Positions 20,339 through 54,500 of a stretch of DNA of 64,000 bases are shown in pieces. Under the pieces are notes generated by a model, which was not told the origin of the DNA, searched no databases, and worked only from the letters and a program-made list of their open reading frames with translations. Where the stretch lies: positions 1,054,001 to 1,118,000 of the forward strand of contig OZ037866.1 of NCBI GenBank assembly GCA_964035575.1, written 5' to 3'. Numbering within the stretch: the stretch's first letter is position 1; every line of letters starts with the position of its first letter. The DNA comes from Rhynchopus sp. YZ270_cl-10 (taxonomy: Eukaryota; Euglenozoa; Diplonemea; Diplonemida; Diplonemidae). The translations under genes and the position numbers were made by a program.

Positions 20339-20340
20339 AG
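20339..20340 (+). promoter_or_regulatory. Candidate 3' splice (acceptor) AG
   Basis: The tract CATTTTGTTCTTTTGCTATTAG ends 70 bp before the start at 20411 and is conserved in the paralogue at 29244-29245. Trans-splicing use is inferred. Confidence 0.35.
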
Positions 20341-20410
20341 AACGTGCACAACCACCCCACACAAAGGTGATCATATTTACTCACAACACATAGAACCTGC
20401 AAGGATAAGG

Positions 20411-28990: not shown

Positions 28991-29243
28991 CCTTTTTGTT
29001 TCAAAACGTAATGACGAACATCTGATGAAGCGCACTGAAAGTGCTTTTGTCTCTATACAACTCATTGGTAAACCTCGCTCACAGCTATTGTTTACATTCA
29101 ATTCCTATTCACATTCTTTTGCCACCCCATCGTGGCAACTTCGTCTCTCTTCGTCTCTTCATGAACCCCACCCACACCCCTTTCCCTACTGCAAAGACGT
29201 AGATGGCACCCCTCCCACAACCTCATTTTGTTCCTTTGCTATT

Positions 29244-29245
29244 AG
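29244..29245 (+). promoter_or_regulatory. Candidate 3' splice (acceptor) AG
   Basis: A pyrimidine tract ending GCTATTAG, 70 bp before the start at 29316, matches the paralogue's site at 20339-20340. Confidence 0.35.
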
Positions 29246-29315
29246 AACGCACACAACCACCCCACACAAAGGTGATCATATTTACTCACAACACATAGAA
29301 CCTGCAAGGATAAGG

Positions 29316-32300
29316 ATGAGGGTGCTCGCTGTGCTGTCCGCGGCGCTGCTGGTGCAAGGCAACGTTCCCCTCTACGAGGGCGCTTCCTTCGACCTGTATG
29401 AAGGTGACATCCAGATGCCCAAGGCCGGACGTGCTGCAGATGTGCAGTCGAACGCAGGCATCAACAAGGCGTCGCTGCTGTGGCCTCTGGGGAAGGTGCC
29501 GTACTTCATTGCGAGCGGCGTCACAAACTCAAAGAACCCGCACCCGAGCTTCTCGCTGTCGCAGAACGAGCCGATGGTGATCGGTGCGGTTGCGAACTGG
29601 GAGGAGAAGACCTGCATCCGCTTCTCCAGGTGTGTGCAGGGGTCTTGCCCGGCGAACCACGTCTTCTTCATCTCCGACAAGGATGCCTGCAACTCTCCTC
29701 TCGGAATGACCGGTGCAAACCAGATCAACCTTTCTGACCAGTGCGGGCTGGGTGCGTCGATCCACGAGGTAGGACACACACTGGGTCTTGCTCACGAGCA
29801 GGCGCGGAACGACCGTGATGAGTTCATCTACTACGACGCTACGCAGGTGAAGGACGGATACGGCCCGCAGTTTGACAAGAGCGGACCGGATGCTCGTGCC
29901 ATCGGGCCCTACAACTACGGAAGCATCATGCACTACGACGCAACGGGCTTCACCATCGGTCTCAAGCCAACCCTGATCGCGCCCGTCCCCATCGGCCAGC
30001 GCGAAGGTCTCTCGCCGGGCGACATCGAAGGTATCCAATTCATCTACAACGACTGCTCAAACGACTTCGTGAAGCCGCGTTGCATGGTGTCGCGCACGAC
30101 AGACACAACCCACCTTGTGGCATACAACAAGGAGTGGACGGTTGAGTTCAACGGGATCTACACAGTGGGGACGAGGCTGACGATTACGTACGACGGCACC
30201 ACTGCAGACTCGACACTGCTCACCACAAGTGTGCCTGCGGGGACAGATCTGTCCGACACTGCGACTGTGCTGGCAAAGTTCACTGCACCGCAGTCTGAAG
30301 CGGGCAAGTCCTTCAAAATCTCTGCGACCTTCAGCAGCGGCGGGCAGGAGGCCACCTGCTCCGTCGACGTCAAGGTTGCCGACAGCGACGCTGTGTGCTT
30401 CGGTGTTCCCGCCTCTGAACCGACTGTCTGCTCGAGCCGTGGTACGTGCCAGAACAACCCGCTCGAGCCCTGCAAGTGCCAGACTGGGTACGGAGGACTG
30501 CAGTGCCTTGGGTTTGAGACATGCCCGTCAAACTTCCTGAACTCCTTCGACGACACCATCGGCACGTGGTCCCCCGTTGGTGACGAGTCTGGCCGCGAAA
30601 CCACCTTCACCGCAGTGGGCGACGGAGCCCTGCGTGCAAAGAGGCTTCCCGAGGCAGGCCAGGCAGGACTCGGCATGCAGAAGGCTGCGAAGCCGGAGCG
30701 CGTGTCGTGGTACATGGCGAGCATGGATGACGGCACTTCAGTCGGCTTCAGCATGGAAGGTGGGAACGACGGGAAAACGAAGTGCATTGCCATGCAGGTG
30801 CAAAACAAGGTCATGTTCGTCGACAGCAAGGACGCACCTGTTGTCTGGGAGCACAACAAGTACTTCCACATCGACGTTCACATCGACTGGAGCACGTCCA
30901 CCTCCGACCTTTACGTGGACGGACACCTTGAGTTGAAGGGCACCCCATTCTCCAATGACTGTGGACCGGGTTTGGTGCACTTCTGGTTCTTCGGAAACGG
31001 GTGGATCGATGAGTTCCACATGTGGTGCACCGGATACGTGAAGATGACTGGCAGCATGCTTGATGGTCTGACCCAGGACGACCTGCGTGCGGGAGGCAAG
31101 GAACTGACACTGACGCTTGTGGGCGACTATGACGAGTGGGTCGACACCGACGAGAACAAGCAGGCCATCCTCGACTCCATGCATTCGGCAGCCCCTGCGG
31201 CACTTGGGTGGAACGCACGCAAGTCGGAGATGATCCCTCTCACACGCCTGAACATCAACGGACAGAAGCTTGTGATCGGGCCTCTGAAGGCGGACGCAAC
31301 GTACGCGAACAGCGCTTCCGAGATGGTCGACTTCCACCTCACAGGCAGCATGTTCAAGTCAGGTGAGGCCCCACAGTGGTCTTCCCACGACGTTGAGTTC
31401 CAGATCCCCGGGACATGCGATGGAACGCTCTACAAGTCGTTCGACACAGACTCGGACAAGTCCCAAATTATGACTATCGACACTGTGAACAAGAAGGTGG
31501 GCGCTGGGGCCGGGAGTCTGACGAAGGGCTACGACCAGGTGTACCCCGCAAAGAACGTGAAGGCCGATTCTTTGAAATTCTTTGGGTTGGTCCAGGACCC
31601 ACAGCAGACACAGTTTGGTGTGAAGCTTGTGTCGCCTGCGGGTTCTTCCATTCCTGTTTATTTGGGAGCTGGTGGGTACAGTGCGTACGAGCTGTCTGGT
31701 GTCTTCACGAGGCTGGAGCCCATGAACAGTGTTCAGTGGTATCAGTTTGAGGTGAAGCTGGACTGGACTGCCAAGACCTACGAGATATTTATTGACGACA
31801 AGAAAGTGGCCACGGATTCGATGCCGGCGGACTTCTTGAACATCGAGAAGATAGTGCTGAACACCTTTGCACAGGCGTCCCTCATCGACGAGATGACGCT
31901 GTCCTGCGCATACAGAGCGCCAAGCTACAACGCGCTGCCGACGTGCCCGCTGGTGGGCAAGGATATCATCAAGATGCGCATCTTCCCTGGCTCCGATGCG
32001 ATTGCCGTCACAGACGAGATCGCCATTGTGCCAGAGACGTCGACCGACTGTTCCACCGCTGCTGGCGACTGTGCGGACCTGGGCGCATGCTCCAAGTCCA
32101 CTGGCTCCATGAACACCGGAAAGGAAGTCGGCGACTCCGCCCCCATCGTCTGGACTGCGGGATCGCTCTCGAAGCTGAAGGCTGGGTCGAAGTACAAGAT
32201 CTGCTACAAGCCGACCTCCACAGGCTCCTTTGTTCTTCTCGATGACGTCTTCACAACATGCGAGTCTACAGCAGCACCCAAGACAGAGGCACCCAAGACT

Positions 32301-33197
32301 GCTGTGCCCAAAACCGACGCCCCGAAGACCGACGCTCCCAAGACTGCTGTGCCCAAGACCGACGCACCTAAGACAGATGCCCCCAAGACTGCTGTGCCCA
32401 AAACAGACGCACCCAAGACAGACGCCCCTAAGACCGATGCCCCTAAGACTAACGCACCGGACACCGACGCACCTCCAGGCAAGTCTGCTGCACCCAAGAC
32501 CGAAGCACCCAAGACCGATGCACCGAAGACCGACGCTCCCAAGACGGACGCACCAAAAACTGATGCACCGAAGACCAACCCACCCAAGACGGACGCACCG
32601 AAGACCAGCATTCCCGACACACTGACCCCTGGCCACACCCACCCGCCTGCCACCCCTGCACCACCGACAGCAGTCCCCACTGCTGTCCCTACTGCCCTCC
32701 CCACTGCAGTCCCCACTGCTGTGCCCACCGCCCTGCCGACCGCAGTCCCCACTGCTGTTCCCACTGCCGTGCCGACTGCTGAGCCGACTGCGCTGCCTGA
32801 GGGACACACCTTCGCACCAAAGACGATTGCACCGACCGTGGCACCCAAGACGGACGCGCCTAAGACAAACGAACCTGAGACCACCCTGCCTGAGGGGTCA
32901 ACCTACGCTCCGAAGGGGTCTGCACCGGTGACTGATGCCGACTCTGGCTCGGATGAGGGAGGCTCCATGCTTTGGGTGATTGGGCTGGTGATTGGTCTGA
33001 TTGCGTTGGTGGCAGTGATTGCGGGTGGCGCCTTCTACATGCTGAAGAAGCCGCCGAGCTTCAACTCCAAACAGAACCTCCCGATGGAGTCTGGCGGCAT
33101 CGATGAATCACAGCTCAGCCCTTACAACGAGATGACAGAGAACCCCGAGCCTGTCTCACCTCTCGCCGAGGAGGAGCACGAACACGCCCTGCTCTAA
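29316..33197 (+). CDS. Membrane-anchored astacin-type metalloprotease, paralogue
   Basis: The product is 1,293 residues and has the same order of parts as the protein at 20411: signal peptide, LYEGD aspartate switch, M12A domain with HEVGHTLGLAHE and SIMHY, Ig-like, EGF-like and LamG-like modules, stalk, single transmembrane helix (about 1218-1243) and short acidic tail ending ALL. All catalytic residues are present. Differences from the paralogue are scattered and few in the ectodomain, but the stalk is longer: 20 PKT units against 14, and more PTAxPT units. The frame is open back to an ATG at 29025. The sequence before 29316 lacks a signal-peptide character and its matching upstream ATG region shifts frame between the copies, so I start at MRVLAVLSAALL. 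It is probably an outward-facing surface protease. Confidence 0.9.
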   Translation: MRVLAVLSAALLVQGNVPLYEGASFDLYEGDIQMPKAGRAADVQSNAGINKASLLWPLGKVPYFIASGVTNSKNPHPSFSLSQNEPMVIGAVANWEEKTCIRFSRCVQGSCPANHVFFISDKDACNSPLGMTGANQINLSDQCGLGASIHEVGHTLGLAHEQARNDRDEFIYYDATQVKDGYGPQFDKSGPDARAIGPYNYGSIMHYDATGFTIGLKPTLIAPVPIGQREGLSPGDIEGIQFIYNDCSNDFVKPRCMVSRTTDTTHLVAYNKEWTVEFNGIYTVGTRLTITYDGTTADSTLLTTSVPAGTDLSDTATVLAKFTAPQSEAGKSFKISATFSSGGQEATCSVDVKVADSDAVCFGVPASEPTVCSSRGTCQNNPLEPCKCQTGYGGLQCLGFETCPSNFLNSFDDTIGTWSPVGDESGRETTFTAVGDGALRAKRLPEAGQAGLGMQKAAKPERVSWYMASMDDGTSVGFSMEGGNDGKTKCIAMQVQNKVMFVDSKDAPVVWEHNKYFHIDVHIDWSTSTSDLYVDGHLELKGTPFSNDCGPGLVHFWFFGNGWIDEFHMWCTGYVKMTGSMLDGLTQDDLRAGGKELTLTLVGDYDEWVDTDENKQAILDSMHSAAPAALGWNARKSEMIPLTRLNINGQKLVIGPLKADATYANSASEMVDFHLTGSMFKSGEAPQWSSHDVEFQIPGTCDGTLYKSFDTDSDKSQIMTIDTVNKKVGAGAGSLTKGYDQVYPAKNVKADSLKFFGLVQDPQQTQFGVKLVSPAGSSIPVYLGAGGYSAYELSGVFTRLEPMNSVQWYQFEVKLDWTAKTYEIFIDDKKVATDSMPADFLNIEKIVLNTFAQASLIDEMTLSCAYRAPSYNALPTCPLVGKDIIKMRIFPGSDAIAVTDEIAIVPETSTDCSTAAGDCADLGACSKSTGSMNTGKEVGDSAPIVWTAGSLSKLKAGSKYKICYKPTSTGSFVLLDDVFTTCESTAAPKTEAPKTAVPKTDAPKTDAPKTAVPKTDAPKTDAPKTAVPKTDAPKTDAPKTDAPKTNAPDTDAPPGKSAAPKTEAPKTDAPKTDAPKTDAPKTDAPKTNPPKTDAPKTSIPDTLTPGHTHPPATPAPPTAVPTAVPTALPTAVPTAVPTALPTAVPTAVPTAVPTAEPTALPEGHTFAPKTIAPTVAPKTDAPKTNEPETTLPEGSTYAPKGSAPVTDADSGSDEGGSMLWVIGLVIGLIALVAVIAGGAFYMLKKPPSFNSKQNLPMESGGIDESQLSPYNEMTENPEPVSPLAEEEHEHALL

Positions 33198-33899
33198 GGG
33201 GTGTCTTTGTTTTCTTTTTATTGGTCTCTTTTATTTTCAGAGGTACAAAAAAAAAAGCGCTTTTCTAGAAAAACGAAGAGCAAGAAAATACCCCCTTTTT
33301 TTTTGTTGAACAAATAAAGCGAAATACTGAACGAATTTTTTTTTCTTTTTTCCCCTTCTTTTTTTTGAATTCTGTGTCAGCTGCCACAAAAGAGAGATCA
33401 TTGTGATTTACTTTTTAAAAAAGCGTTTTTTTTTTTTTGTTGGTAGAGCCATCCTAGGGTATCTACACAAATACAACAATTTTTCAAAAAAAAAAAAAAG
33501 GTAAAAAGAAGGGGAAAAAACAAGAATGGAACACCCGCAGTCACAGAATTGCAAAGTGTGTTATTCAGAACTATTTTCCCACAAACTTCCTTCAACTCAT
33601 TTTCAACCCTCAGTGCCTGAGTCCTGCAGAGGGCAGGTTGCACTGTTCCCCCCTTTTTTACTTCCTTCCTTTGTCCTCCACCCTCGAAAATAAAAGCCCT
33701 CCAATGGTTGTGCAAACCCTTTTGTATTTTTTTTTGTCATCATTTATTTTCTTTTAATGCTTGGTGACAACTACCCAGCTTTTCCACGTTGCTCCCCTTC
33801 CCCTCTCCCCTCCGAAAGAACGTTATTTCTTTTTTTTTTATTCTAAAAAACTCCCCCCCATCCCTTCAAAAAAAAAGGGGGGGATACAACAGTAATTGG

Positions 33900-34794
33900 T
33901 TAGGCAATGTTAGCAATGTTAGGCAATGTTAGCAATGTTAGCAATGTTAGCAATGTTAGCAATGTTAGCAATGTTAGCAATGTTAGCAATGTTAGCAATG
34001 TTAGCAATGTTAGCAATGTTAGGCAATGTTAGCAATGTTAGCAATGTTAGCGATGTTAGGCAATGTTAGCAATGTTAGCAATGTTAGCAATGTTAGCAAT
34101 GTTAGCAATGTTAGCAATGTTAGCAATGTTAGCAATGTTAGCAATGTTAGCAATGTTAGCAATGTTAGCAATGTTAGCAATGTTAGCAATGTTAGCAATG
34201 TTAGCAATGTTAGCAATGTTAGCAATGTTAGCAATGTTAGCAATGTTAGCAATGTTAGCAATGTTAGCAATGTTAGCAATGTTAGCGATGTTAGCGATGT
34301 TAGGCAATGTTAGCAATGTTAGCAATGTTAGCAATGTTAGCAATGTTAGCAATGTTAGCAATGTTAGCAATGTTAGCAATGTTAGCAATGTTAGCAATGT
34401 TAGCAATGTTAGCAATGTTAGCAATGTTAGCAATGTTAGCAATGTTAGCAATGTTAGCAATGTTAGCAATGTTAGCAATGTTAGCAATGTTAGCAATGTT
34501 AGCAATGTTAGCAATGTTAGCAATGTTAGCAATGTTAGCAATGTTAGCAATGTTAGCAATGTTAGCAATGTTAGCAATGTTAGCAATGTTAGCAATGTTA
34601 GCAATGTTAGCAATGTTAGCAATGTTAGCAATGTTAGCAATGTTAGCAATGTTAGCAATGTTAGCAATGTTAGCAATGTTAGCAATGTTAGCAATGTTAG
34701 CAATGTTAGCGATGTTAGCGATGTTAGCGATGTTAGGCAATGTTAGCAATGTTAGCAATGTTAGCAATGTTAGCAATGTTAGCAATGTTAGCGA
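33900..34794 (+). repeat. 9-bp satellite (TTAGCAATG)n
   Basis: About 98 tandem copies of a 9-bp unit. Blocks begin with a 10-bp variant carrying GGCAATG (33903, 33922, 34022, 34059, 34303, 34736). Three of them end in one, two and three copies of the GCGATG variant. One frame reads MLA repeats and another NVS repeats, but this is simply the repeat and not a gene. Confidence 0.95.
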
Positions 34795-34981
34795 CACCTC
34801 CCCTTTTTTTCGCCAGTTGTATGCATGTTTAGGAAGGCTACTTCCTCTTTAGCCGCTCCATGGTGCAGGGCAGTCGTGTCTAGCATGTAGCCATGTTTGT
34901 CTGTTGCGCACAAAGAACGAAGAGAGACTCCGGATCTCATTGCTTCTGTGTTTCACAGAAAGCGCCTCCCCATTGCCACTT

Positions 34982-35023
34982 GTTTTGGGGGGGATTATAC
35001 AGCATACATCTGGGATTTTCTTT
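34982..35023 (+). repeat. 41-bp dispersed module, copy 2
   Basis: Counterpart of 26637-26677, same orientation. Confidence 0.65.
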
Positions 35024-35352
35024 ATTTCTTTTTCTCTCTCTCTTTTTTTTTTTTGTTCGGCGCCTCAAAAAAAAACCCCCTCTATGTTCTTTGAAAAACT
35101 GTTCTTGAAGTGGCAAGCACCCAGCTTCCCCCACTGTCTGACACATTTTTTCTTCGCTCTAGTCCTCCTTTGGAATCATGCACTGATCGGGGAGTGGTCT
35201 GGAACTGTTTCCCGTCTTTCATTTTATCCATTTTTGCTTAGGCCTAAAACAATTTTTTTTTTTGCCACTTTTTATTGGTTCCTTTTTTTTTTTTCAAGGT
35301 GACCAAACACGGGAGTGGGCTCATATTTACCCAACTTTTTCGTTTTTTTTTT

Positions 35353-35414
35353 GGGTACATTTAGTGCACCCTATTATACCATCTATTCAGTAGAATAGTT
35401 AGTATATGAAACAA
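35353..35414 (+). repeat. 62-bp dispersed module, copy 2
   Basis: Identical to 2658-2719. It follows directly after a member of the dispersed same-strand motif family at 35298-35340. Confidence 0.7.
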
Positions 35415-35662
35415 GTTTTTTTTTTCTCAATCAGATGTATAGCACAAATGGCTGTAGGATTGCATGATTGGGGACCACCCAGTGTGTACCGGTCATACCA
35501 AAGGTACACTGTTTGTATTTGAAGTCAAACTGTTTTCTTTCTCCAACCGATTTCTATTGAACGAAAACGACAACCCCCATTTCGATATTGTTTTCTGTGT
35601 TTCCACCCCACCTCTAAAATTTACAAAGGAAAAAGAAGGATTATATGTTGTGCAACTAAATG

Positions 35663-35714
35663 CATACTGTGGGTGTTATAACGTTATCGATAACGTTATA
35701 ACACCCACAGTATG
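35663..35714. repeat. 52-bp perfect palindrome
   Basis: Two 26-bp arms meet at ATCGAT with no spacer and no mismatch. The arm begins CATACTGTGGGTGTTATAAC. It could extrude as a cruciform or be a protein-binding site. I see no larger element around it. Confidence 0.9.
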
Positions 35715-37202
35715 TAAATGTAAACATTTTTTTTTTTTTGTTTTCGGCTCGCCACACTCTGCAACCGATTCAAAAATCATGTGATATGATTTTCTAATGT
35801 TATGCAAAAAAAACGTTACCATGACAAATTCATTATATCTCTGAAGCTTTCTGGATTTCTCAAAATTATTGTAGCGGTTTAGATTCTCGAATTTCATCTG
35901 AAATTATTCCAGAGACGAGATCAAAACACGCACGATTTTTTTTTTTCCATCGTAAGAGCACAAAGCAAAAATTACAAAATCCTTTCATAAAACTTATTCA
36001 TAAAATACCCCTTTTTTTTCAACTGCGTCCAACAAGCATTTTTGCATGCAACACTTCACTTTTTTTCATCAAATTCTTTTTCCTTTTTTGGGGGTCTCTT
36101 TTTTTGAGACCTCTTCCAGTCAAAAATTCTGCAAAAAAAAAAAAAGACACAACCAGGCCAGTGTGCACTTCTCTTTCCTGCGCCATTCTATGTGACGCTG
36201 AAGTCGCAAAAAACATGCTTCCCAGATTCAAAAAAAAGAAAGAATTCTTTAAATTAAAAGAAGGGAGGCGGGCTGGCTTGGTGGAGTTTTTTTTTTAAAG
36301 AGGTTGCCTTACCGCCTTGTACGAGGAAGGGTAAGGTGGAAGGTACATCTCACAAAAAAAAAAGACTTCTTTTTTTTTTTTTTTTGCAGGAAAAAGATAA
36401 GTTGATAGATGAACAACAGGGGGAAAAGGATTCCCATTTGCTCGACGGCGAAAAAAAATGTCGTTTTTTTTTATTTCCTTTTCGTAGTAGACAACCGTTT
36501 TTTTTTCTTTGTTTTTTCGGCTACAAATTTGTAGCAAACAAATCATATATCAACTCCCAAACCCATTTGTGTTGTTGGCGACAAAGTAAAAATAGTTGTT
36601 TTTTCTTCTGCGTGTGTTATTTTTATTTTTATTTTTTTTTTGTGAAAAGCCAACTATTTTCTGTGAATGGGGTTTTGACAGGTAGAATAGGAAGTGCTAC
36701 GTATCTCGTTTGCAATGCCTTAAACCCGAAGCTCCATGAAGGGGGAAAAAAAAAAATGGACATTTGTATGTGTTCGGGTGTCTGCGCCCGATGAACGTTG
36801 AGGCGTTTGCACTCCTTTTGTTTAGGCTAAGTAATAAGAAGAAATATCAACTATTTTTTTTAAAAAATGAAACACCCCCCTTTCTTTGTATTCGTTGTTT
36901 GTTGTTTGTTAATCGCATCCATCCGTGAGTAAGACTCATGACAACCGACGAAACGTCTGTCGTGTCCAGATGTATTGTATACTCGTACAAAAAGAAATGT
37001 GGAGATTGCACAAGCTGTGTCAACACAAACCGAGGCAACTACACCACAACAATTTATCAAAAAAATCAAAAAAAGACATTGTGTAGTTCCCGGCTACTCT
37101 CCACGCTCTTTTTGTACATTTTTTTTCTCTCGAACGGATGAATTTAAAAGCACAGAGGCGAAGGTGCGTCTTGCAAAAAAAAAAAAAAACATTTTTTTTT
37201 CG

Positions 37203-37900
37203 GAACACTCATCGAAGCCAACATCGTGAGCAAGCCTCATCCCTTCGGGTCGTCTCTCTATCGCTACTCTTCACCCAAGATTTGCCTCAAACGTTTTAGT
37301 TAAAGAGAAATATGCAAATTCATCTTTCAACTTCTCTGAGGAAATGATCTGTGTGCCTTACAGTGTCCCTGTAAGCAACTCCAAAGGTAACTCTCTCTGG
37401 GGGTTTGATAACCTGCGGAGTGTCAAATGCCTGCGTCCCAGAGGCGTTATGCACTATCAGCGTCACATTCTGCCCTCAGTTTACAGGATGATGCTAAAAG
37501 GATCTAAAAACGGGTTTTGCGACACATCCTCGCATTGAAAGAGAGACGCTAGTATTCTGTGATCTGTGGTAGACTGAAGAGCATCCCTACGAAGAGCATG
37601 CCTTTCGAAGACTTCACCACAATCAAAAGCTTGCCTTTTTATTTTTTCTTTTTTCCTATGAGTCTGGTGTGGTCAAAGGTCCCATGCATCGCAAAAGACT
37701 TTGTAAAAACTAGGCACGGTTTTTATTATTTTTCAAGTCAAATTTACCTCTGATCACACCAGTCTGCTGAGTTTTCGCAAAACAATTTTTTTTTTAAAAG
37801 CGAGATGTCTGGCCAGTCAGGTCAGTTTGTCGTATTTTTCTTTTTCAAACCCACAGTTTTTTTGATTGTGACCAAAGCGCTTGAGGCTTAGGTTCATCTC
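37203..37900 (+). repeat. Duplicated spacer block, copy 2
   Basis: Counterpart of 27777-28990 without the 506-bp insertion. The empty position is near 37690. Confidence 0.75.
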
Positions 37901-38644
37901 ATAAATTGGTCCATCTATGTCAACTATTTTCATTTTTTGAACGAGACGGTGATTAAGTTCATCTTCTTTCAAAAAAATGAAAAAAATATCCCCACATTTT
38001 TATTTTTTCTGAAAATATGAGACCCTCTTTCCTTTTCTTTTAAAATTGGAAATTTTCTTTCGTGCAGGTTCTCTTTTTCTTTTTCTTTTCTTTTTCTGAT
38101 ATTTTGAAAACGTTGTTGTATCAACCTTTGAAGTCACCCAAGGATGCGCTCCAACTTTTTTGTTTTGTTTTCTTTTTTTTCTTTTTTTCTTTTGCTGAGA
38201 TGTTATGTTGTCTTACAAGAAGTTACATTACTGTCTCTTTTGAGTTTTCCTTTGATTCTCCGTTTTTCTCTTTTCTCCCTACATACCCCCCTTTTGGTTT
38301 GCACTTCCTCTTCCACAAAAAACCCCAGCCATTTTTCTAATTGCCTCTTCTGTTCAAGAGAGCTGGGGGGGGCAGTCGGGAGCTTCGTGTGGGGAGTGGT
38401 ACCCACCCACTCCTTCTCTCTCTTCCCGATTACCCCCCTCTCTTGTTCATGAAGAAGCCGGTAGAAGAAAAAAAAAATCTCCCTCTTTTTCCTCTTTTTT
38501 CCTCTCAAACAAAAGAACCCTACAACAAAGCGCCCCTCTGTTTTCCTAATTTAATTATTCCGAAAACAGAGACAAAAAAAATTGAAGAAAAAAAAAAATC
38601 AAAAAAAAGGTCTTTTTTTTTTCCCCTCTCCCAAACCTCCCCTA

Positions 38645-38646
<2 letters not shown>

Positions 38647-38675
<29 letters not shown>

Positions 38676-39300
38676 GTACTCAGGTAGCTACGTAGCCTTC
38701 AGGGAGGCAATCGTGTGCTAATACAGAAAGTATCAGTCAAGGCTGTCCTTACAGACGCATGCCAAAGCGGCCGCCACATGGGTGTGGACTTTAGATTGAA
38801 GTTTCATCATTGTACTAGCCCAGGGAGGGTTCCCGGCTACCGGCGAGGTCTCTTCCAATCCGTTCCCTAGTTTCCTAGGGGGGCCTCCTTGGCTTCACTG
38901 GCTAGGGCTCTGCAGGTCCCTCCACACATGTTGTGTGCCTGCCTTCAGCACCCAGGGTAGCATACCCAGCACCTTTTACCCTCAGGTCAGACCTTCATAG
39001 AGTTTCAGGAGGAGTGCCACAAAAGGGCCCCCGGATGCAATTTAACGTCCAGCCCAGGACGACATCTTTTCTTTTAAAAAAAAAATTGCTGAACAGCTCA
39101 ACAGCGAATCTAACGGTCCACAGAGGTCAGAGGTCTGCACAACCTTCTCCTGAGTCCCCCACACGGCCTCCCTCGGGCCCACACGGGTCCCCTCGTAGTC
39201 CAACAGGGCTCCCGCGAGCAAAAAACCCAGCGGGAGTGGTGAGACATCTTATTATGGACGGTGAAGAGACTATCGGGATAGTACACTCAATTTGGCTCAA
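38647..39300 (-). mobile_element. Possible retroposed GC-rich segment with T tract
   Basis: A run of about 29 T (38647-38675) is followed by some 600 bp of GC-richer DNA unlike the spacer. On the minus strand this reads as a sequence ending in poly-A, as a SINE or processed pseudogene would. No family is recognised and no target duplication found. Confidence 0.25.
38783..38990 (+). repeat. GC-rich repeat, copy 1
   Basis: It contains GGGAGGGTTCCCGGCTACCG, then TTTCCTAGGGGG, then GGCTTCACTGGCTAGGGCTC, and resembles 39441-39598 with indels. Function unknown. Confidence 0.6.
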
Positions 39301-39440
39301 TCTATGAACGGAGAGATTTTTTTTTTGGCCTCAAAGAGGTTCAGGCTATTATATACGATTTTTTTCCTTACCAAAAGTGCAAAAAAAGTGAGGTTGCTAT
39401 TCCTGAGGGGGCTGCAGGCACGGAGGGGCTTTTTTGGAAG

Positions 39441-39598
39441 GAGTGGACTTAAGTTTGAAGTATCATCGTTGTCCAGGGAGGGTTCCCGGCTACCGGCTAG
39501 TTTCCTAGGGGGCCTCATGGCTTCACTGGCTAGGGCTCCAGCAGGTCCCACACATGCACTGTGCCTGACTTTCCCAGCACCTTTCACCCCTTCAGGAG
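39441..39598 (+). repeat. GC-rich repeat, copy 2
   Basis: A shorter copy of 38783-38990 in the same orientation. It is followed by two copies of a GCGGAGCAAAAAA ... ATGGCGCCGCAGGC module (about 39616-39655 and 39725-39760). Confidence 0.6.
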
Positions 39599-40048
39599 GA
39601 GCACTCTATTTTTTTTGCGGAGCAAAAAAAAATAATATAAAATGGCGCCGCAGGCGGAAAAAAATTGGGGTACGGTGTAAAAATCTAGCCTTTTACACCA
39701 CAGAGTCACTCAACGAACCCTTTTTTGCGGAGCAAAAAAGGAAAAATGGCGCCGCAGGCAAAAATTTTTTGGGTACAGCCTGTATGGTACGGGATTCATG
39801 GTGCGGTCAGCAGCCCAGTTCCCCAAAAAATGCAAAAAATTTTTTCTCCAAATCTGCAAATTTTTTTTTTTTTTTTCAAAACTGAGGTTTGGCCTCAGTT
39901 CTACTACGGTGTATAAATCTCTGAAGAGGTTTCCTCTTCACGAGGTAGTCCGTGGGCGCGACAGAATATTTTTTGCACAACTTTACGCACAAAGTGAGTC
40001 TCACAAACTCTCACAAAAAACTCTCACAGCCTGTTTGCCGTGTCTCAC

Positions 40049-40050
40049 AG
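40049..40050 (+). promoter_or_regulatory. Candidate 3' splice (acceptor) AG
   Basis: CTGTTTGCCGTGTCTCACAG ends 10 bp before the start codon at 40061. The tract is less pyrimidine-rich than at the other genes, so this is the weakest such site. Confidence 0.2.
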
Positions 40051-40060
40051 ACGATCATAG

Positions 40061-43000
40061 ATGGCCCCAACTCCAATACATTTAAAAAAACTCACCAAAA
40101 ACCTACCACCAGGCACACCCAATGACAACAATGCACCGAGCAGGACCGTGCCCCCTGTTCTCCAATGTACCCCTCTCCCGGGGGCTCTTCTCCCTCCCCT
40201 ATGCACATACTCTTTTCTCCTCCTCCTCTCTCTCTCTCTCGCCCCTTCTTGCACCTCCAGCATAGTCACCCCTGAACGCACCGCATTGTGGCCAGGTGGG
40301 CAGATTCCTTATTACATCGAGACGACATTGGCTGTGTCGGGGTTTCCTTTGCAGGCTTCGGACGTACGTATTGCAGCAGCGATAGACGAATGGCAACGTA
40401 CAACGTGTTTGGAGTTTATTGAATGCGATAAAGCAAGCTGTCCAAACTTCCGAATTCAATTTTTCGCAGATTCATCCTGCACGATATCAGGCATCGGGAG
40501 AAGAATTCAAAACCAAATCAATCTCTCCCCACAATGCACCACAGGGGACATCCTCACCCTTCTCGGCACCGCAATCGGACTTCTCCCTGAACACAACAGA
40601 ATCGACCGTGATGTGTACATTAGTGTTGACAGTTCGGATGTTTCTTTAGAAAAAACCAACGGAAATCTCCTGACACCCTATGACTATCAAAGCATCATGC
40701 ACGCAGGACCATTTTCTCATGTTTCCGATGGTGCTGCCTTTCGTGCTGCGATCACTGCACCGGTTGCGGTTGGTTTGAAACAAGGTGTGTCCATTCGAGA
40801 TGCGGAGGGTGTTAACCACGTCTACCGTTCATGCAGGGGGCCGGAATACACTCCTTTAACGATGAGTTGTTCAAAACCATCGAAAAATACCTTAGAAGTT
40901 GGACAGCCATGGACCGTAACGTTCTGGGGATTTGCTGCAGAATCTGCGGATGTACTGCTCTCTACTGACCAAACGCTGACTACACTTCCTTCAAATTATA
41001 CTATTCTTGTAGACCGGGTTGATGGGGTGGGGTATGCTACATTGACCATTACCCCCGCTGGGGGTGACGTTGGGCGTCAATTTTCCATAACCATGAAGGC
41101 ACGCACGACGCTCCCTACTACCGAAGAAGCCGTATTATCCATCGACTTTGATGCTGTAGATGCAAAGCTTTGCTTTGGTATGAGCCCTTCTACTTCATGC
41201 AATAATGAGCCCTGCTCTGATACCAATATTTGTAGTTGTGGTGCTACGCTAAGCGGAACAACATGCGAATCACCAAAAGACTGCACCTCATCTCTACGCT
41301 ATGGGTTTGAAGACGGCGCGGGCATGGGGAGACCCTATATCATCAACGCTGTTGCGTTCTTTACTCAAGCAAAAAGCGCGTTTGGTGGCACCTCCATGCG
41401 TCTAGGGCAAGGTTCCGTCTTAGGCTCGCTCTCCTTCAAAACAGTCAGCTCTACCGACACAGCGGAGCAATACGGAAAGATATCCTTTTATTTAAACCTA
41501 GATGACACTGTAGACGCCCGCTTTGCGTTTGATGTGCTGGATGGGTCAAATAGCTGTTTCGCATTGGAGCGTCGTGGTACCGGATGGTTCTTCGGCGGAA
41601 ACAATATGGTCGTCACTGAAGTACGCGGCCGCTTCATTTTGATTGACATTCTGATCAATTGGGTGTCCCGCTCCGCAATGCTGCATATGAACGGTGTGCT
41701 CCTCACCCCGACAGCGACGCTAACTGCAGGGGTCTGCCTCTCTGGTGCCACCAATATCGATATCAGCGGAACCTACGCGCACATTGACGAGCTTTCTTTG
41801 TTCTGCGGGGCCTATGTGCAGGCCTCAGGTTCCGCTTTTCCCTCTATCTCCCAAGAACGCTTTGCTGCAGGAGGTGCGGTAATCAGTCTTACCTTAGAAG
41901 GAAAACAGTGGGAGGCTGCTACACCCGATGCATTGGTCGGAATGGTGAAGGAGGATGTAAAGTCCGATGCGGTTCCAACGATGTGGAGTGCTGCAATGCG
42001 TGATGCAGTGTTGCCTGTTGGGAGCGCTGTGGTGTCGGGGCAGACGCTGTCGGTTACGTTTGGCGCTGCGGGTGTGGGGAGAAACAGCTTCACAGAGTGG
42101 TTCTATTTAGGCGAGGTGATGCTGAAGGAGGACCTAGGGGATATGCCGTTGGAGGTGGCAGGTGATTGTGGGTCTCCTAGTGTTGAATCGTTTGAAGCGG
42201 TGCCGACAAATTTTGTGGCGTCGTACACGATCGACACTGCGGTGAAGAAGGTGGGCACAGCCTCCGCGAAGCTCGCGAACGGTAGGAAGCAGACGTTCCC
42301 TTGGTACCCGAGGCACCCTTCGGCGATATCGTATTATGTGCGCGATGCAACGAATGTGGGGCAGACTGTGTTGGAGCTGGCGTCAGCCTCTGAAACAGTC
42401 AAAATCTTTTTTGGTTTTGCCAATCAGATCTATGTCATGTCCGGGTCACAGCACGCTCCGCCGTACACCGTTACCGATGCAAACGCGTGGTACCACATTG
42501 AGGCAAGGTTTGACTGGTCAGATGCGGTGTGGGAGATGGTGGTGTACATCGATGGGGTGGCGCAGATCACTGCACCCTTGCCCGCTGTGGCTGACTTCAA
42601 TTGGATTACTGGAATCACCATGGAAACGCAGGGCGACGAAACGTACCTCGACGAGCTCAAAATATCCTGCCCAGAGGTAAAACCACGCCTCACACAGACA
42701 CCCTGCCGAGCAATGAACATATTTTCTACAACCTTCACCTTCTCCGGCGGATCCTATATCCTATCTACAGAGGACTACGCGGTGTTGCTCCCCTCTACTA
42801 CTACTTCATGCACCGGAGTGACCTGCGCAAATGGAATCGTTTGTTCACAAAATTCTGGTACATTACTGTACGGAAAGAAGAATTTCAGGCAAAACGAGGT
42901 GCAATGGGCAGCAGGGAGGCTGGCACAGCTGGATCAGAGTGCGGTGGGGTTTAAAATGTGTTACTATGTTGTTTCCGCCGCGGAGATGGTGCTTCTTGAT

Positions 43001-43681
43001 GAAGATGTGACCATGTGCGCTGCAACTCAGGCGCCTGCTACCCTATCACCTCCTACCCCAGCTCCCCCCACCGCGATTCCGACAGCAACCCCCACAGCAG
43101 CGCCCACCGCAACACCCACCACAGCTCCGACAGCGCAGCCAACTGCAACACCCACTACAGCCCCTACCCTCTCCCCTACCATATCTACTGACACACCCAG
43201 CCCGAGCAATGAGACCATGCCGCCAGGTGTGGTCACCACGACGCCAGAAGACGCAACAACACCAACCCCAGAAGGGGAAGGGCCAGGGGAGGACACAGAT
43301 GGCCCAGAGGGGAATGTGAGTGTCGCCCCATCGACGGCGCCGGAGCTGGGGGCGACGGATAGTGGAAGTGATGATGGGTGGTTTGAAATATGGATGGTGG
43401 CGGTGGCGGCTGGGGTTGTGGTATTGCTGTTAGCGGCCGTAGGGGGGGTGTGTATGTTGAAGATGCGTGGTGGTGGTGGCGGCGGTGGTGGTGTTGGCAG
43501 TTCTGCAGCTTCTGGTAGTTCTGGCATGCCCAAAAGCTTCCAAACCTCCCTCCTCGACCCCTCCTTTCACGAGATGCTCGAGGAAGTGCAGTTCAGCTCC
43601 CCATCCCCACAAGCACAGGGCCCTGACGGGGTGTACATGGACGGAGAAGAATTTGGGGGGCACGTTCCCGTTCTTGTTTGA
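40061..43681 (+). CDS. Astacin-related membrane pseudoprotease
   Basis: The product is 1,206 residues. It aligns with the neighbouring astacin proteins through LWPGGQIPYYIE, the IDRD after the zinc site, the Met-turn core SIMH, Ig-, EGF- and LamG-like modules, a PT-rich stalk (about 990-1085), a transmembrane helix (about 1109-1132) and a Gly-rich tail. Where the others have HExxHxxGxxHE it reads TLLGTAIGLLPE (166-177): the three histidines and the catalytic glutamate are Thr, Thr, Pro and Leu. The Met-turn tyrosine is Ala215 and the FxGD switch is missing. It cannot be an ordinary zinc protease. The frame stays open throughout, with lower-GC codon use than its neighbours, so it looks like a maintained non-catalytic protein, perhaps a binding or decoy form. 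The N-terminus is long, with the hydrophobic segment at about 50-62, so either the start or the signal type is uncertain. Confidence 0.8.
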   Translation: MAPTPIHLKKLTKNLPPGTPNDNNAPSRTVPPVLQCTPLPGALLPPLCTYSFLLLLSLSLAPSCTSSIVTPERTALWPGGQIPYYIETTLAVSGFPLQASDVRIAAAIDEWQRTTCLEFIECDKASCPNFRIQFFADSSCTISGIGRRIQNQINLSPQCTTGDILTLLGTAIGLLPEHNRIDRDVYISVDSSDVSLEKTNGNLLTPYDYQSIMHAGPFSHVSDGAAFRAAITAPVAVGLKQGVSIRDAEGVNHVYRSCRGPEYTPLTMSCSKPSKNTLEVGQPWTVTFWGFAAESADVLLSTDQTLTTLPSNYTILVDRVDGVGYATLTITPAGGDVGRQFSITMKARTTLPTTEEAVLSIDFDAVDAKLCFGMSPSTSCNNEPCSDTNICSCGATLSGTTCESPKDCTSSLRYGFEDGAGMGRPYIINAVAFFTQAKSAFGGTSMRLGQGSVLGSLSFKTVSSTDTAEQYGKISFYLNLDDTVDARFAFDVLDGSNSCFALERRGTGWFFGGNNMVVTEVRGRFILIDILINWVSRSAMLHMNGVLLTPTATLTAGVCLSGATNIDISGTYAHIDELSLFCGAYVQASGSAFPSISQERFAAGGAVISLTLEGKQWEAATPDALVGMVKEDVKSDAVPTMWSAAMRDAVLPVGSAVVSGQTLSVTFGAAGVGRNSFTEWFYLGEVMLKEDLGDMPLEVAGDCGSPSVESFEAVPTNFVASYTIDTAVKKVGTASAKLANGRKQTFPWYPRHPSAISYYVRDATNVGQTVLELASASETVKIFFGFANQIYVMSGSQHAPPYTVTDANAWYHIEARFDWSDAVWEMVVYIDGVAQITAPLPAVADFNWITGITMETQGDETYLDELKISCPEVKPRLTQTPCRAMNIFSTTFTFSGGSYILSTEDYAVLLPSTTTSCTGVTCANGIVCSQNSGTLLYGKKNFRQNEVQWAAGRLAQLDQSAVGFKMCYYVVSAAEMVLLDEDVTMCAATQAPATLSPPTPAPPTAIPTATPTAAPTATPTTAPTAQPTATPTTAPTLSPTISTDTPSPSNETMPPGVVTTTPEDATTPTPEGEGPGEDTDGPEGNVSVAPSTAPELGATDSGSDDGWFEIWMVAVAAGVVVLLLAAVGGVCMLKMRGGGGGGGGVGSSAASGSSGMPKSFQTSLLDPSFHEMLEEVQFSSPSPQAQGPDGVYMDGEEFGGHVPVLV

Positions 43682-46576: not shown

Positions 46577-47060
46577 TAGTTTGATATGTGTTTGAAAAGC
46601 GAGTGTGTACCCTGGGTGGGCTTCCCTAACACGACGTAAAACACGTCAATGTCATACACATCCACGTCTACGGAAATCGCATACAATGCAAGAGGTCCAG
46701 ATACAGTGTGCAGCAAGTCCATAACATGGGTGCTTTTTCGCAAGCTCAGAAGTGAGAGAGAGAGGTGCAAGGGGCACTGTTCTGTTTGCATATCTACTGG
46801 AACCGGCCGATGAGGCAATCCACCCTCAGCCCCCGTGGACAGCAATGTGCCCCCTTAAGGGAGTGCTCTGGCTTCAACCAAGCGGCCCTCTCGCGTGAGC
46901 TGATCAGCAGGTGTCGGCTGTGTTATTCGCTTTCATCGGTTTTGCAAGCTTCGCAACTTTCAGATGCTCAAGTGTTGACGCAGTATCAGAGAACCCCGAA
47001 CTCAGCGCTTCGCTTTCATTTCTACAGCACAGTACATAATATGATCTCCAGAGTCCGTCC

Positions 47061-47255
47061 ACAACACAACACAACACAACACAACACAACACAACACAAC
47101 ACAACACAACACAACACAACACAACACAACACAACACAACACAACACAACACAACACAACACAACACAACACAACACAACACAACACAACACAACACAAC
47201 ACAACACAACACAACACAACACAACACAACACAACACAACACAACACAACACAAC
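47061..47255 (+). repeat. (ACAAC)39 microsatellite
   Basis: A perfect pentanucleotide array of 195 bp that ends 64 bp before the start codon at 47320. Because 195 is divisible by three, an open frame runs through it as a QHNTT repeat. I regard it as leader or spacer rather than protein. Confidence 0.95.
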
Positions 47256-47297
47256 ATACACCCCTTTTACCCCCCTCTCTTCCACCTGCCTCACCCT

Positions 47298-47299
47298 AG
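47298..47299 (+). promoter_or_regulatory. Candidate 3' splice (acceptor) AG
   Basis: The tract from about 47264 (CCCCTTTTACCCCCCTCTCT then CCTGCCTCACCCTAG) is strongly pyrimidine-rich and ends 20 bp before the ATG at 47320. It is among the best such sites in the window. Confidence 0.4.
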
Positions 47300-47319
47300 G
47301 TTTTCCCCAAATTTTTCAA

Positions 47320-48171
47320 ATGAACGTCACAGAAATATGCACCAAGCTAGCGACCTCCTGGCCGATGTGGAGGGGCAAGCGGGTGTTGGTGATTGGGATG
47401 GGGGGTGGGTGTGACTGCTTTGCGGCGCATGCGGTGAGCACACTGCTTTCTCGGGAGATGGACGGATGCACGATGCTGTACGGCAACTGCATCGGGCCGC
47501 GCGACACCTCAGCTGCAGTGGACGTCACGCAGCGCAACGAACTCTTCCGCTTCACCACCCCTACACGCGCGCTACTCCCCTCCGAGTCAGGCTACGGCAC
47601 GCTGCTTCTCGAATCCTCCCTCCCACGCTGCACCACCGGCAGTCCCTACCTTCTAATGTTTCAAAACCGTGGCTTAGTCCCCGAAGTCACAGCACACAAC
47701 ACTGCCGCCCTGAAACGCACCCTAGACACCCTCTCTATTGACTGTGTCGTCGGTGTCGACTGTGGGGGCGACTCTTTGACGGGAGGGGTGGACTGGAAGG
47801 TGTCGCCAGATTTGGGGAGGGATGTGCAGGTGTTGCATAGTTTGCATGGTTGTGGACGGCCATTTGTTCATGTGGTGCTAGGTCCTGGGTGTGACGCAGA
47901 ATCTCCCACAAACGTTATGCTCGGTGCCGTGAATGCGCTCGACACCGCTGGGCACTTCCGTGGAAGCTTTCACCTCGGCACAGCGCTCCCCCTCATGCGT
48001 CCCTTCACTACAACCTTGGCACCAAATCGTACACCAAACCTAATGTATGATGCATGGAAACAACGGCTACACATAAATGAGGCAGGTAATGTGAGCATCA
48101 CCAGACACAAAAACACGGAGGAAGTGCCTGCGATCTGGCTGGAGCATGGCTTGGTGTTTGCGTATGATTGA
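47320..48171 (+). CDS. Probable DUF1152 family protein
   Basis: The product is 283 residues, cytosolic by appearance, with no signal peptide or membrane helix. The N-terminal VLVIGMGGGCDCFAAHAVS resembles the glycine-rich nucleotide-binding-like motif of DUF1152 proteins. The central VVGVDCGGDSLTGG, with SPDLGRDVQVL close behind, matches the family's characteristic D-x-GGD and S-P-x-x-x-D pattern. VLGPGCDAES follows. The family is known from archaea, bacteria and some protists, and its biochemical role is unknown to me. The open frame extends upstream to 46765 through the ACAAC array. I start at 47320 because the conserved part begins just after it and a pyrimidine-AG site precedes it. Family assignment is by memory of motifs. 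Confidence 0.7.
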   Translation: MNVTEICTKLATSWPMWRGKRVLVIGMGGGCDCFAAHAVSTLLSREMDGCTMLYGNCIGPRDTSAAVDVTQRNELFRFTTPTRALLPSESGYGTLLLESSLPRCTTGSPYLLMFQNRGLVPEVTAHNTAALKRTLDTLSIDCVVGVDCGGDSLTGGVDWKVSPDLGRDVQVLHSLHGCGRPFVHVVLGPGCDAESPTNVMLGAVNALDTAGHFRGSFHLGTALPLMRPFTTTLAPNRTPNLMYDAWKQRLHINEAGNVSITRHKNTEEVPAIWLEHGLVFAYD

Positions 48172-51055: not shown

Positions 51056-51529
51056 AAATGCAGGTGTTTTCGGACGTGCACGTCCACTGCCGCCTTGTTG
51101 TGACAATAAATGATATTTTCTTTCACGGGAAAATGGATTTTCCGTGAAACATAGGGGGAGGGGTCCCGGTCACCAAAAAAGTGGTTTATTGCTACTTTGT
51201 AACAGAAGTAAATGGAAAAACGAGCCTTCCCTTTCGTGCTTTTCTGGTAACAGTCTATACCAATGAACGAGTTTGCGAGGTACAGGGCAGATGGTATCCG
51301 TCATCCTTACAGTAGATGTTGGACAGCGGGTCGACTGCTGTGCTGGTTGCATATCGAAGTGCAGTACACTGTATTTCAAGGCAACTTGATAGACCATCAC
51401 CCACTGCAGTATTGCTTACCTGATGTCAAAGCTCCGTATGCGTGCTAACACAGCATCGACACAACAAACCAACACCACCACACTGCAGATACATTGCATT
51501 GCATACACATCCCTGTTTCTTCCCACAAC

Positions 51530-51531
51530 AG
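51530..51531 (+). promoter_or_regulatory. Candidate 3' splice (acceptor) AG
   Basis: CCCTGTTTCTTCCCACAACAG ends 41 bp before the start at 51573. It lies outside the duplicated unit, so the downstream paralogue cannot share it. Confidence 0.35.
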
Positions 51532-51572
51532 AAATACGGCACAAAAGTCTCGCCCTTCGAACACCAGTTGCG

Positions 51573-54500
51573 ATGATGGCAGTGTCGCGCACGCTGCTTG
51601 CGCTGTGTGCGGTGTGTGCTGCTGCTGCGTACGACTACGAGATCATGGACGGGGACATCCAGCGCATTGTGAACCGCGACGGTACAGGGCAGGGGAACAG
51701 TGCGATCAACAGACCCTCGCAGCTGTGGCCGAACGGGCACATGGCGTACTACATTGAGACGGGGGGAACGAACCCGCAGTCACCTGCGACAACTGCACTG
51801 CGCGCAGACGAGCCGATGGTGGTGCGTGCGATTGCGCACTGGGAGGAGAAGACGTGCATGACGTTCACGAAGTGCCAGAAGGCACAGTGCCCGCAGCAGC
51901 AGTACATCATGTTCATCTCTGACGCGAGTGCGTGCAACTCGCCGTTGGGGGCACCGGACGCAAGTCGCGGGAACATGAACCAGATCAACCTGGCGAGTGG
52001 GTGTGGGCTGGGTGCGTCGATCCACGAGATTGGACACACACTTGGGCTTGGGCACGAGCAGGCGCGGAACGACCGTGATGAGTTCATCTACTACGACGCT
52101 ACGCAGGTGGAGGCAGGGAAGGGTCCGCAGTTTGACAAGTCTGGGGTGAACGCACGTGCGATTGGACCGTACGACTACGGAAGCATCATGCACTACAGCG
52201 CAAGTGGGTTCACGATTGGGACGCTGCCGACGCTGGTGTCGCCTGTGCCGATTGGGCAGCGCGAAGGTCTGTCGCAGCACGACATCACAGACATCCACTT
52301 CACGTACAACGACTGCTCGGCAACGTTTGCGAAGCCACGTTGCATGGTGTCGCGTACGACAGACACAACCCACCTTGTGGCGACAGGGAAGCAGTGGACG
52401 GTTGAGTTCAACGGGATCTACACGGCGGGGTCGAAGCTCGCAGCGTCGTTCGCAGGGACGACGGCCGGGGCGCTTGTGACAATGGTGAACCCCGACGGGA
52501 GTGCGCTTGCGGATGGGACGGAGCTGAGCGACACTGCGACGGTGCTGGCGAAGTTCACGGCACCTGCGGCAGAGGCGGGGAAGGCGTACACACTGAAGGT
52601 GACATTTGCGAGCGGGGGCAAGTCTGCAGAGTGCTCCATCGACCTGAAGGTGGCGGACAGCGACGCAGTGTGCCTGGGGAAGTCGTCGAAGGACGCGTCT
52701 GTGTGCGGTGGACGTGGGACGTGCACGAACAACCCAAAGCAGCCGTGTGTGTGCAACGGGGCATACGGAGGTATTGAGTGCTTCGGGTTTGCCACGTGCC
52801 CGACAAACATTGTCGACAACATGGACACGACGTTTGGGCTGTGGACGGCTGGGGGCGACAACTCTGGTCTGGACACGTCTGTGAAGGCGCGTGGGGCGGG
52901 ATCGCTGCGCATCGACGGTGTGACGGAGGAGGGACAGGGACTGCGGACACCACTGGCTGCATCGCAGCCGAACCGTGTGTCGTTCTTCATGCGTGGGGCA
53001 GGTGCTGGGGCGAAGAATCCTGCATTCATCCTGTACAGTCAGCCAGACAAGTCGAAGCAGTGCATTGACATTTACGCAACGTCTGGGAAGTGGGCGTTCA
53101 ACCAGCAACAGGCGACCTCGTCGTCGGACTCGAACCTGAACGACTTCTTCCACTTTGACATCCACGTGGACTGGGCTGCACAGACAGCGGACTTCTACAT
53201 CAACGGTCTTCTGGAGGGGAAGGCTGTGCCGATGGGGACGTGCAGCGGGGGCATCACACAGATGGCGCTGATTGGAAACGGGTACCTCGACGAGTTCCGG
53301 ATGTGGTGCACTGGGTACGTGATGCCGAGCGGGCTTGTGGCTGATGCGTCGCAGGAGGTGCTGCGTGCGGGGGGGAAGACGCTGACACTGACGCTTGTGG
53401 GCGACTACGACGAGTGGGTCGACGACGCGGCGAACAAGCAGCGTGTTGTGGACGCGCTCGTTGGGACGGGTGCTGGGTGGAACGCACGCAAGGCGACACT
53501 GCTGGATGCAGGGCTTGTGACTGTGAACGGGCAGGTGCTGACTGTGGGTCCGCTGCGTGCGGACGCGACGTACGACCTCGGAGCGACGGAGAACGTGATG
53601 ATGGAGCTGACGGGGGCGATGTTCAAGTCTGGGACTGCGCCGGCGATGAAGTCCTCGGACCTGCAGTTCCGTATCCCTGGGTCGTGTGCGGGAACTGTGC
53701 GTCGTGGGTACGAGAGTGCTGCGGACGTGGAGGGGACGACGGTTGTGACAGTGTCGACGCTGAAGAAGCAGTCTGGTGTGTCGTCTGGGCTGCTGAAGGC
53801 GGGGTCCTTTGTGAGCTACGCATCGCCGCTGCTGCCTGCGTCGTTCACGGTGTACGCGAACCTTGTGGACACGAATGCGCAGGTGAACGTGAAGCTTGTT
53901 GGTGCAGGGGCGAGTGGGGCGGAGGTGCTCTTCATAATTGGGCTGCACGGGAAGGTGACACGCGGAACGGACACAGAGCTCCTCAACTCGTTTGCGACAA
54001 ACACGTGGGTGAAGTTTGAGGTTGTGTTCAACTGGGCGGCGAAGACGTACGACATCAAGGTCAACGACGCGTCAGCAGAGACGGGTGTCGCAATGCCTGC
54101 GTCTGGGTTTGCGGCCCTCGGGAAGGTGTCGATTGCGTCACTTGCTGCCGGCACACACATTGACGACCTGGAGATTGCGTGCCCTGCTGCAGGTGTGTCC
54201 TTCACGACAGGCCCTGTGTGCCCTGTGGCAGGTGTGGACGAGACGGTGATGTCACTGTTTATGGGGTCGGACGCACTGTCGACGAGCGACGAGGTGGCGG
54301 TTGTGCCGAAGGCTTCGGCAGACTGCAGCCAGGCTGCGACGGAGTGTGTTGCGCTCGGTGCGTGCTCGAAGAGCGACGGCACGCTGAGTGCTGTGACGTC
54401 TGACACAACGAGTGCGGCTGTGCAGTGGGCGATGGGGAAGCTTGCGAAGATGGCCAAGGACACTGAGTACAAGGTCTGCATCAAGCCTGTTTCGACGGGT

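Follow-up and report, generated by a model that had tools for sequence, protein, structure and literature searches.

The pseudo-astacin gene and its open reading frame

Here we analysed a stretch of 64,000 nucleotides of contig OZ037866.1 from Rhynchopus sp. YZ270_cl-10 (assembly GCA_964035575.1, positions 1,054,001 to 1,118,000), hereafter the window, which carries on its forward strand, at window positions 40061..43681, a gene for a protein of 1206 amino acids that is, judging from its sequence, very probably a non-cutting relative of the astacin metallopeptidases. We call this protein the pseudo-astacin and compare it with four astacin genes of the same window that keep their catalytic motifs and that are named here by their starts (20297, 29025, 51423 and 58635). 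The open reading frame (ORF) runs from ATG to stop, and a chance origin is ruled out, as 200 shufflings of this DNA yielded no frame longer than 254 codons. From residue 58 onward the same protein is present in a record of the European Nucleotide Archive (ENA), P0001, with 1149 of 1149 residues identical; this record probably stems from this strain or one very close to it, because P0004, another ENA protein, whose contig is of similar size (1,032,843 bases, against 1,011,827 for P0001), matches this genome at 237 of 237 residues (about 65 of them read across an apparent intron).

The string HExxH occurs nowhere in the pseudo-astacin protein. The other five frames contain it twice, in frames interrupted by 46 and 61 stops, and the non-coding frames across the ORF hold between 28 and 61 stops each. 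This search rules out a complete HExxH in another frame or elsewhere in the protein, the latter a possibility that an earlier note on this DNA had raised against its own proposal of an intact astacin gene with every zinc ligand replaced.

An astacin domain without catalytic residues

The Pfam Astacin profile (PF01400) matched residues 77-256 (40289..40828, forward strand, as are all features of this gene) with 68.8 bits against a curated cut-off of 22.5, covering profile positions 2-187 of 189 and placing the pseudo-astacin within the sequence family. In the place of HExxHxxGxxHE the domain reads TLLGTAIGLLPE (residues 166-177, 40556..40591), and its Met-turn reads SIMHA (residues 211-215, 40691..40705). 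The four neighbours have HE[VI]GHTLGL[AG]HE and SIMHY here, to which both segments align without gaps, and in the end-to-end alignment the longer stretch CTTGDILTLLGTAIGLLPEHNRIDRD of the pseudo-astacin pairs, again without gaps, with CGLGASIHEVGHTLGLAHEQARNDRD of the neighbours. At the five catalytic positions, T, L, T, P and A stand in place of H, E, H, H and Y, and none of the replacing residues is among the usual zinc ligands. Neither of the motifs that mark active enzymes of the family (HExxHxxGxxHE and SxMHY) is present, and as far as the residues themselves can tell the site would offer nothing usable for catalysis or metal binding. The motif glycine, the family-specific glutamate after the third histidine, RxDRD, and the methionine and histidine of the Met-turn are kept, together with five of the six cysteines of the domain that are invariant among the active paralogues of the window.

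The domain is predicted to keep the astacin fold. The structure prediction, which the earlier note had proposed, was run with an alignment of the five window domains and 46 of 54 proteins (P0008, P0011 and P0051 to P0056 were left out), and the model returned an astacin fold.

Downstream of the domain lies a cysteine-rich ectodomain (40838..43018) with about 25% identity to the active paralogues, in which 17 of the 20 cysteines invariant among the neighbours are kept; a sequence search with residues 262-1000 found no relatives of solved structure at E values up to 1. The ectodomain is followed by a Pro/Thr-rich stalk (residues 987-1099, 43019..43357) and by a hydrophobic, probable membrane-spanning segment (residues 1110-1133, 43388..43459), both recognized by eye. 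The membrane segment is preceded by TDSGSDDG, and two of the four neighbours (20297 and 29025) show TDADSGSDEGG at the equivalent juxtamembrane place.

Most of what the earlier note had read from the letters therefore holds: the 1,206-residue frame, the stalk and the membrane anchor, the replacement of every zinc ligand (the three histidines being T, T and P) and the change of the Met-turn tyrosine to alanine. Its statement that the whole active-site block was lost is accurate for the five catalytic positions and has to be corrected for the glutamate after the third histidine, which is retained.

The leader and the missing propeptide motif

The N-terminal leader (40061..40270), which the earlier note took as part of the intact gene, proved less secure. 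Ahead of the domain the first codon is the sole ATG in frame, the available records disagree over this part, and the leader, with a hydrophobic stretch at residues 50-61, closes with a long tract of pyrimidines followed by AG at 40260. Because of this tract, 40260 may be the 3' end of an intron with a first exon upstream, leaving the 5' end of the gene uncertain. The search for an upstream exon with a signal peptide yielded several candidates by hydropathy, the best at 36867, none of them convincing. Elsewhere in the family, a GT-AG pair with a pyrimidine tract is visible by eye inside the astacin domain around C31:701900-702200 (within C31:701000-705000). Introns thus seem to be present in the family, and mechanically defined ORFs can therefore miss exons.

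In animal astacins, crystal structures described in the portions of two papers available to us (PMC9848320; PMC9629494) place a propeptide aspartate on the zinc of the zymogen, and the FXGDI motif is given as common to these proteins in the same portion of the former (PMC9848320). We found no such motif in the leader of the pseudo-astacin, which lacks xxGD[IVM], nor any GD[IMV] in the three forward frames of window positions 33197-40330, where a motif interrupted by an intron would escape notice. Across the genome, 53 of 63 different HExxH frames have xxGD[IVM] at a distance of 111-127 residues upstream of HExxH, and none of the three degenerate ones has it at the corresponding place. The count covers frames with at least 128 upstream residues; shorter frames, some of them with no visible motif, were left out. 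The ten frames without it comprise eight with the motifs of one subfamily, plus C5 and C70; the rows are not independent.

The subfamily in question, marked by a GIMHY Met-turn, is well supported and has HExxH intact (C32, C49, C66, C71, C78, C85:292627, C76, C16:771871 and C19:1305482). By active-site motif it accounts for eight of the ten exceptions, yet C49:667812 and C49:674061 show REGDV. Another latency device is possible in this group.

Zinc-site loss within a large astacin family

At least 119 matches to the astacin family are present in the genome (152 Mb in 126 contigs), a lower bound because the search scored 120 candidates only, and further degenerate copies may exist. The motif survey took in 102 of the 119 (17 were left out), and as six of these could not be extracted from the listed loci, 96 were read. 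HExxHxxGxxHE is present in 89 of the 96, one of which has a stop in the matched stretch; the other seven are three pieces of split matches lacking the whole motif and four copies with substitutions, namely the pseudo-astacin, C75:662086 (GVLGAALGLTHE, SITHY), C79:1029908 (HVLGDTLGLLHE) and C99:321066 (HEIGHSMGFAHV). The zinc ligands are kept in C99:321066, which is probably active as judged from its motif. Among the 96 matches read, the pseudo-astacin is the only one to have lost all five catalytic positions.

Among 66 domains that we took as active, 32 alignment columns reach a constancy of at least 97%; five of these columns are catalytic. Of the five the pseudo-astacin keeps none, but it keeps 22 of the remaining 27 (Fisher p 0.0013); the corresponding numbers are two and 26 for C75 and three and 27 for C79. 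The 66 domains belong to an alignment of 70, from which the three degenerate members and C70 were set aside for this count and in which C99:321066 was retained. The alignment, from which fragments, stop-bearing frames and identical copies had been left out, also gave a first tree; a second tree was built from 38 rows thinned at 90% identity, without C70 and with the active-site columns removed. A single origin of the three degenerate astacins was marginally rejected (approximately unbiased test, p 0.039), a result made uncertain by the long branches, and on this ground it is likely, from the sequences compared, that the zinc site was lost at least twice in this genome.

The second degenerate copy, C75:662086, has an intact open frame of 1766 codons with stalk and anchor and no propeptide motif. 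It shares with the pseudo-astacin the degenerate zinc site, the missing motif and the anchored intact frame, but it keeps the third histidine, the tyrosine and a high GC content at third codon positions (GC3, 0.747), and it has lost the Met-turn methionine; its zinc-site loss was probably a separate one. Partly degenerate astacins also exist outside this genome, as P0005 (201 amino acids, from a 692-base ENA contig) has the first zinc histidine and the Met-turn tyrosine replaced (YEIGHSLGLAHE, SIMHD).

Several arrangements within the family were noted in passing. The C79 copy (C79:1028900-1033000) exits its frame after 523 codons, similarity continuing in another frame that ends, by eye, in a stretch resembling WD40 repeats. 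In C85:558842-611632 tandem astacins of one subtype start exactly 8195 bases apart (558842, 567037, 575232, 583427, 591622, 599817 and 608012), with two further subtypes between them, and in C42:232976-248941 seven astacin matches of equal score follow one another in tandem at intervals of 2567 or 2576 bases.

Selective constraints on the pseudo-astacin

The catalytic codons of the pseudo-astacin have undergone at least 11 base changes from codons for histidine, glutamate and tyrosine. When neutral drift was simulated on the frame, the mean number of stops rose from 5.5 at 0.05 changes per site to 42.7 at 1.0; none of 60 runs stayed free of stops at 0.05, 0.1, 0.3 or 1.0 changes per site, and 13% did at 0.02. 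Identity at fourfold sites is 31.5% with the neighbour at 20297 (w20297) and 26.4% with that at 51423 (w51423), where saturation would give about 25%. At second codon positions, by contrast, identity to the four neighbours is 50-53%, with 26% expected. In columns invariant among the four active neighbours the pseudo-astacin keeps 22 of 26 cysteines versus 144 of 420 other residues. Because cysteines were preferentially kept and second positions conserved while fourfold sites approached saturation, these alignments establish net purifying selection for what would be a disulfide-bonded fold across the whole divergence, a span that may include the time of an active ancestor. A numeric ratio of nonsynonymous to synonymous rates was set aside, as no orthologue was recovered and fourfold sites are near saturation.

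What the pseudo-astacin may be doing

Taking these results together, we favour with moderate confidence the view that the pseudo-astacin is a maintained pseudopeptidase of some kind. It would be an old, fast-evolving paralogue of the adjoining stalked and membrane-anchored astacins that has lost the zinc site, shows no zinc-blocking propeptide motif, and has retained the disulfide-braced fold, the ectodomain, the stalk and the anchor. It is from this combination of kept architecture, lost metal site and absent latency motif that we infer surface display and binding: the likeliest mechanism would be that of a cell-surface binder which displays its astacin cleft and ectodomain and leaves the bound partner uncut, and its task could be adhesion or the capture of a ligand or of a prey polymer.

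Several observations weigh against this reading. Selection after the loss of the zinc site is reached by inference, since constraint before and after the loss was not separated. The astacin region has a GC3 of 0.463, below that of every other astacin frame listed (0.77-0.79 in the active neighbours and 0.695 in C79; intergenic GC is about 0.40), and over the whole ORF GC3 is 0.53 versus 0.71-0.73 in the neighbours, a value shared by three non-astacin ORFs of the window (0.53-0.54). As GC3 lies so far below that of the family, the missing codon bias suggests low expression or relaxation. No orthologue was found in the protein collection, a weak negative in that about 8000 word-sharing candidates or domain-length proteins were scored. 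In the two trees the pseudo-astacin sits on a very long branch, with 3.27 and 2.84 changes per column; its leader has no textbook signal peptide, and that of the ENA record is frame-shifted, its first 37 residues resembling another frame of this DNA. Degenerate copies are not alone in lacking the propeptide motif, which is also absent from the 10 of 63 HExxH frames described above. The fold prediction leans on a nearly wholly canonical alignment (46 of the 50 rows besides the pseudo-astacin), and the ectodomain was modelled from five sequences with a predicted local distance difference test score (pLDDT) of 38.6. The proposal of the earlier note that the gene is selected for a non-catalytic function is thus supported by the catalytic loss, the predicted fold and the constrained frame, and is left in part undecided by the low codon bias and the discordant leader, which would also fit a weak or relaxed function. 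The particular roles that it named (substrate capture, inhibition of the active paralogues or a receptor role) would be conjecture.

Much of this evidence is what would be expected if the pseudo-astacin were a paralogue under relaxed constraint, with little expression and a dead protein, that is well advanced towards becoming a pseudogene, whose frame has not yet been broken and which has no separate selected function. The low GC3, the long branch, the uncertain leader with its frame-changing difference between records and the failure to recover an orthologue all agree with such a fate, and the frame break of C79 indicates that decay, or an assembly error, does occur in the family. On the other hand, 1206 codons without a stop despite the changes in the catalytic codons, the preferential retention of cysteines and the contrast between second codon positions and fourfold sites weigh against it. 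We think this explanation unlikely to be the right one, and nevertheless a rival to be taken seriously.

A regulatory role is less probable still. The pseudo-astacin might act as a dominant-negative form or decoy, pairing with the adjoining active astacins or taking up their substrates or inhibitors; it lies in the same contig stretch as these paralogues, has the same overall layout and a juxtamembrane motif common to two of the four, and regulation of active relatives is reported for other pseudoenzymes in the part of a review available to us (PMC11266112). Its identity to other family members is only about 25-37%, however, and its expression may be below that of the neighbours. We would give such a role a small chance. 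Finally, an assembly or gene-model error masking an intact active site, for which one could invoke the differing 5' leaders and the apparent intron of at least one family member, is extremely improbable given the gap-free alignment of the active-site block, the lack of HExxH in frame, the stops in every other frame and the identical 1149 residues of the ENA record, even if that record may come from this strain or a close relative of it.

Comparison with known systems

With the astacin metallopeptidases (MEROPS M12A, PF01400) the pseudo-astacin shares the family match, the predicted fold, most structural cysteines, RxDRD, the family glutamate and the Met-turn methionine; it differs from them in the replacement of all three zinc histidines, the general-base glutamate and the switch tyrosine, and in that no propeptide aspartate motif was found. 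MEROPS very probably holds non-peptidase homologues of M12A, and other metallopeptidase families are well known to include pseudopeptidases. The four neighbours share the ectodomain, a P/T-rich or PKTDAP-type stalk and the anchor, with end-to-end identity of about 25%, but keep HExxHxxGxxHE, SIMHY, the propeptide GDI motif and a high GC3.

A parallel is offered by the ADAM pseudopeptidases (such as ADAM11, ADAM22 and ADAM23), which, according to the part of the review available to us, likewise carry on an anchored ectodomain a metzincin domain with replaced zinc ligands and a kept Met-turn methionine (PMC11266112). They belong to another metzincin family, and several have a reported partner or role (same source and part), whereas a role for the pseudo-astacin is proposed here. 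Replacement of the zinc ligands is therefore known in itself, and the pseudo-astacin adds to it a new member from the astacins. The available part of the review, tables included, names no astacin pseudopeptidase (PMC11266112), and none appeared in the titles and abstract openings listed by literature searches, which left most subscription journals uncovered. Among the titles and abstract openings listed by searches aimed at astacins of diplonemids or protists there was likewise no paper on the subject, and the words peptidase and protease are absent from the main text, so far as it was available, of a paper on diplonemids (PMC10161547); a second diplonemid paper (PMC12621601) contributed nothing to this analysis.

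With many HExxH astacins beside at least two degenerate copies that are intact, and with all three degenerate members lacking the propeptide switch, this genome allows one to ask whether loss of catalysis frees these proteins from the latency device. It is conceivable, and on balance we doubt it, that the organism repeatedly converted an expanded set of surface-anchored astacins into non-cutting binders (adhesins or decoys), the propeptide motif being absent each time the zinc site was gone, possibly outside the usual astacin lineages. An origin of astacins at the Holozoa root has been proposed (PMC9848320, section 2.2, the part available to us), and the large set found here would bear on that proposal if the host is not a holozoan.

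Other features of the window

An Rfam scan of the window gave no match. The active neighbours form two recent duplicate pairs, 20297-24166 with 29025-33197 (97-99% identical at each codon position in the aligned part) and 51423-55847 with 58635-62909 (more than 99% on the same measure). Between two genes, at 33926-34790, a long repeat reads (MLA)n in stretches of all three forward frames. The proteins encoded at 8142-11225 and 14384-17716 are long and related to each other; both have a unit repeated in the N-terminal part, PT stalks and a membrane part with a weak, below-cut-off resemblance to TRP channels. The ORF at 46765-48171 carries in its first part a long (QHNTT)n simple repeat, followed by a match to DUF1152, and its true start probably lies downstream.
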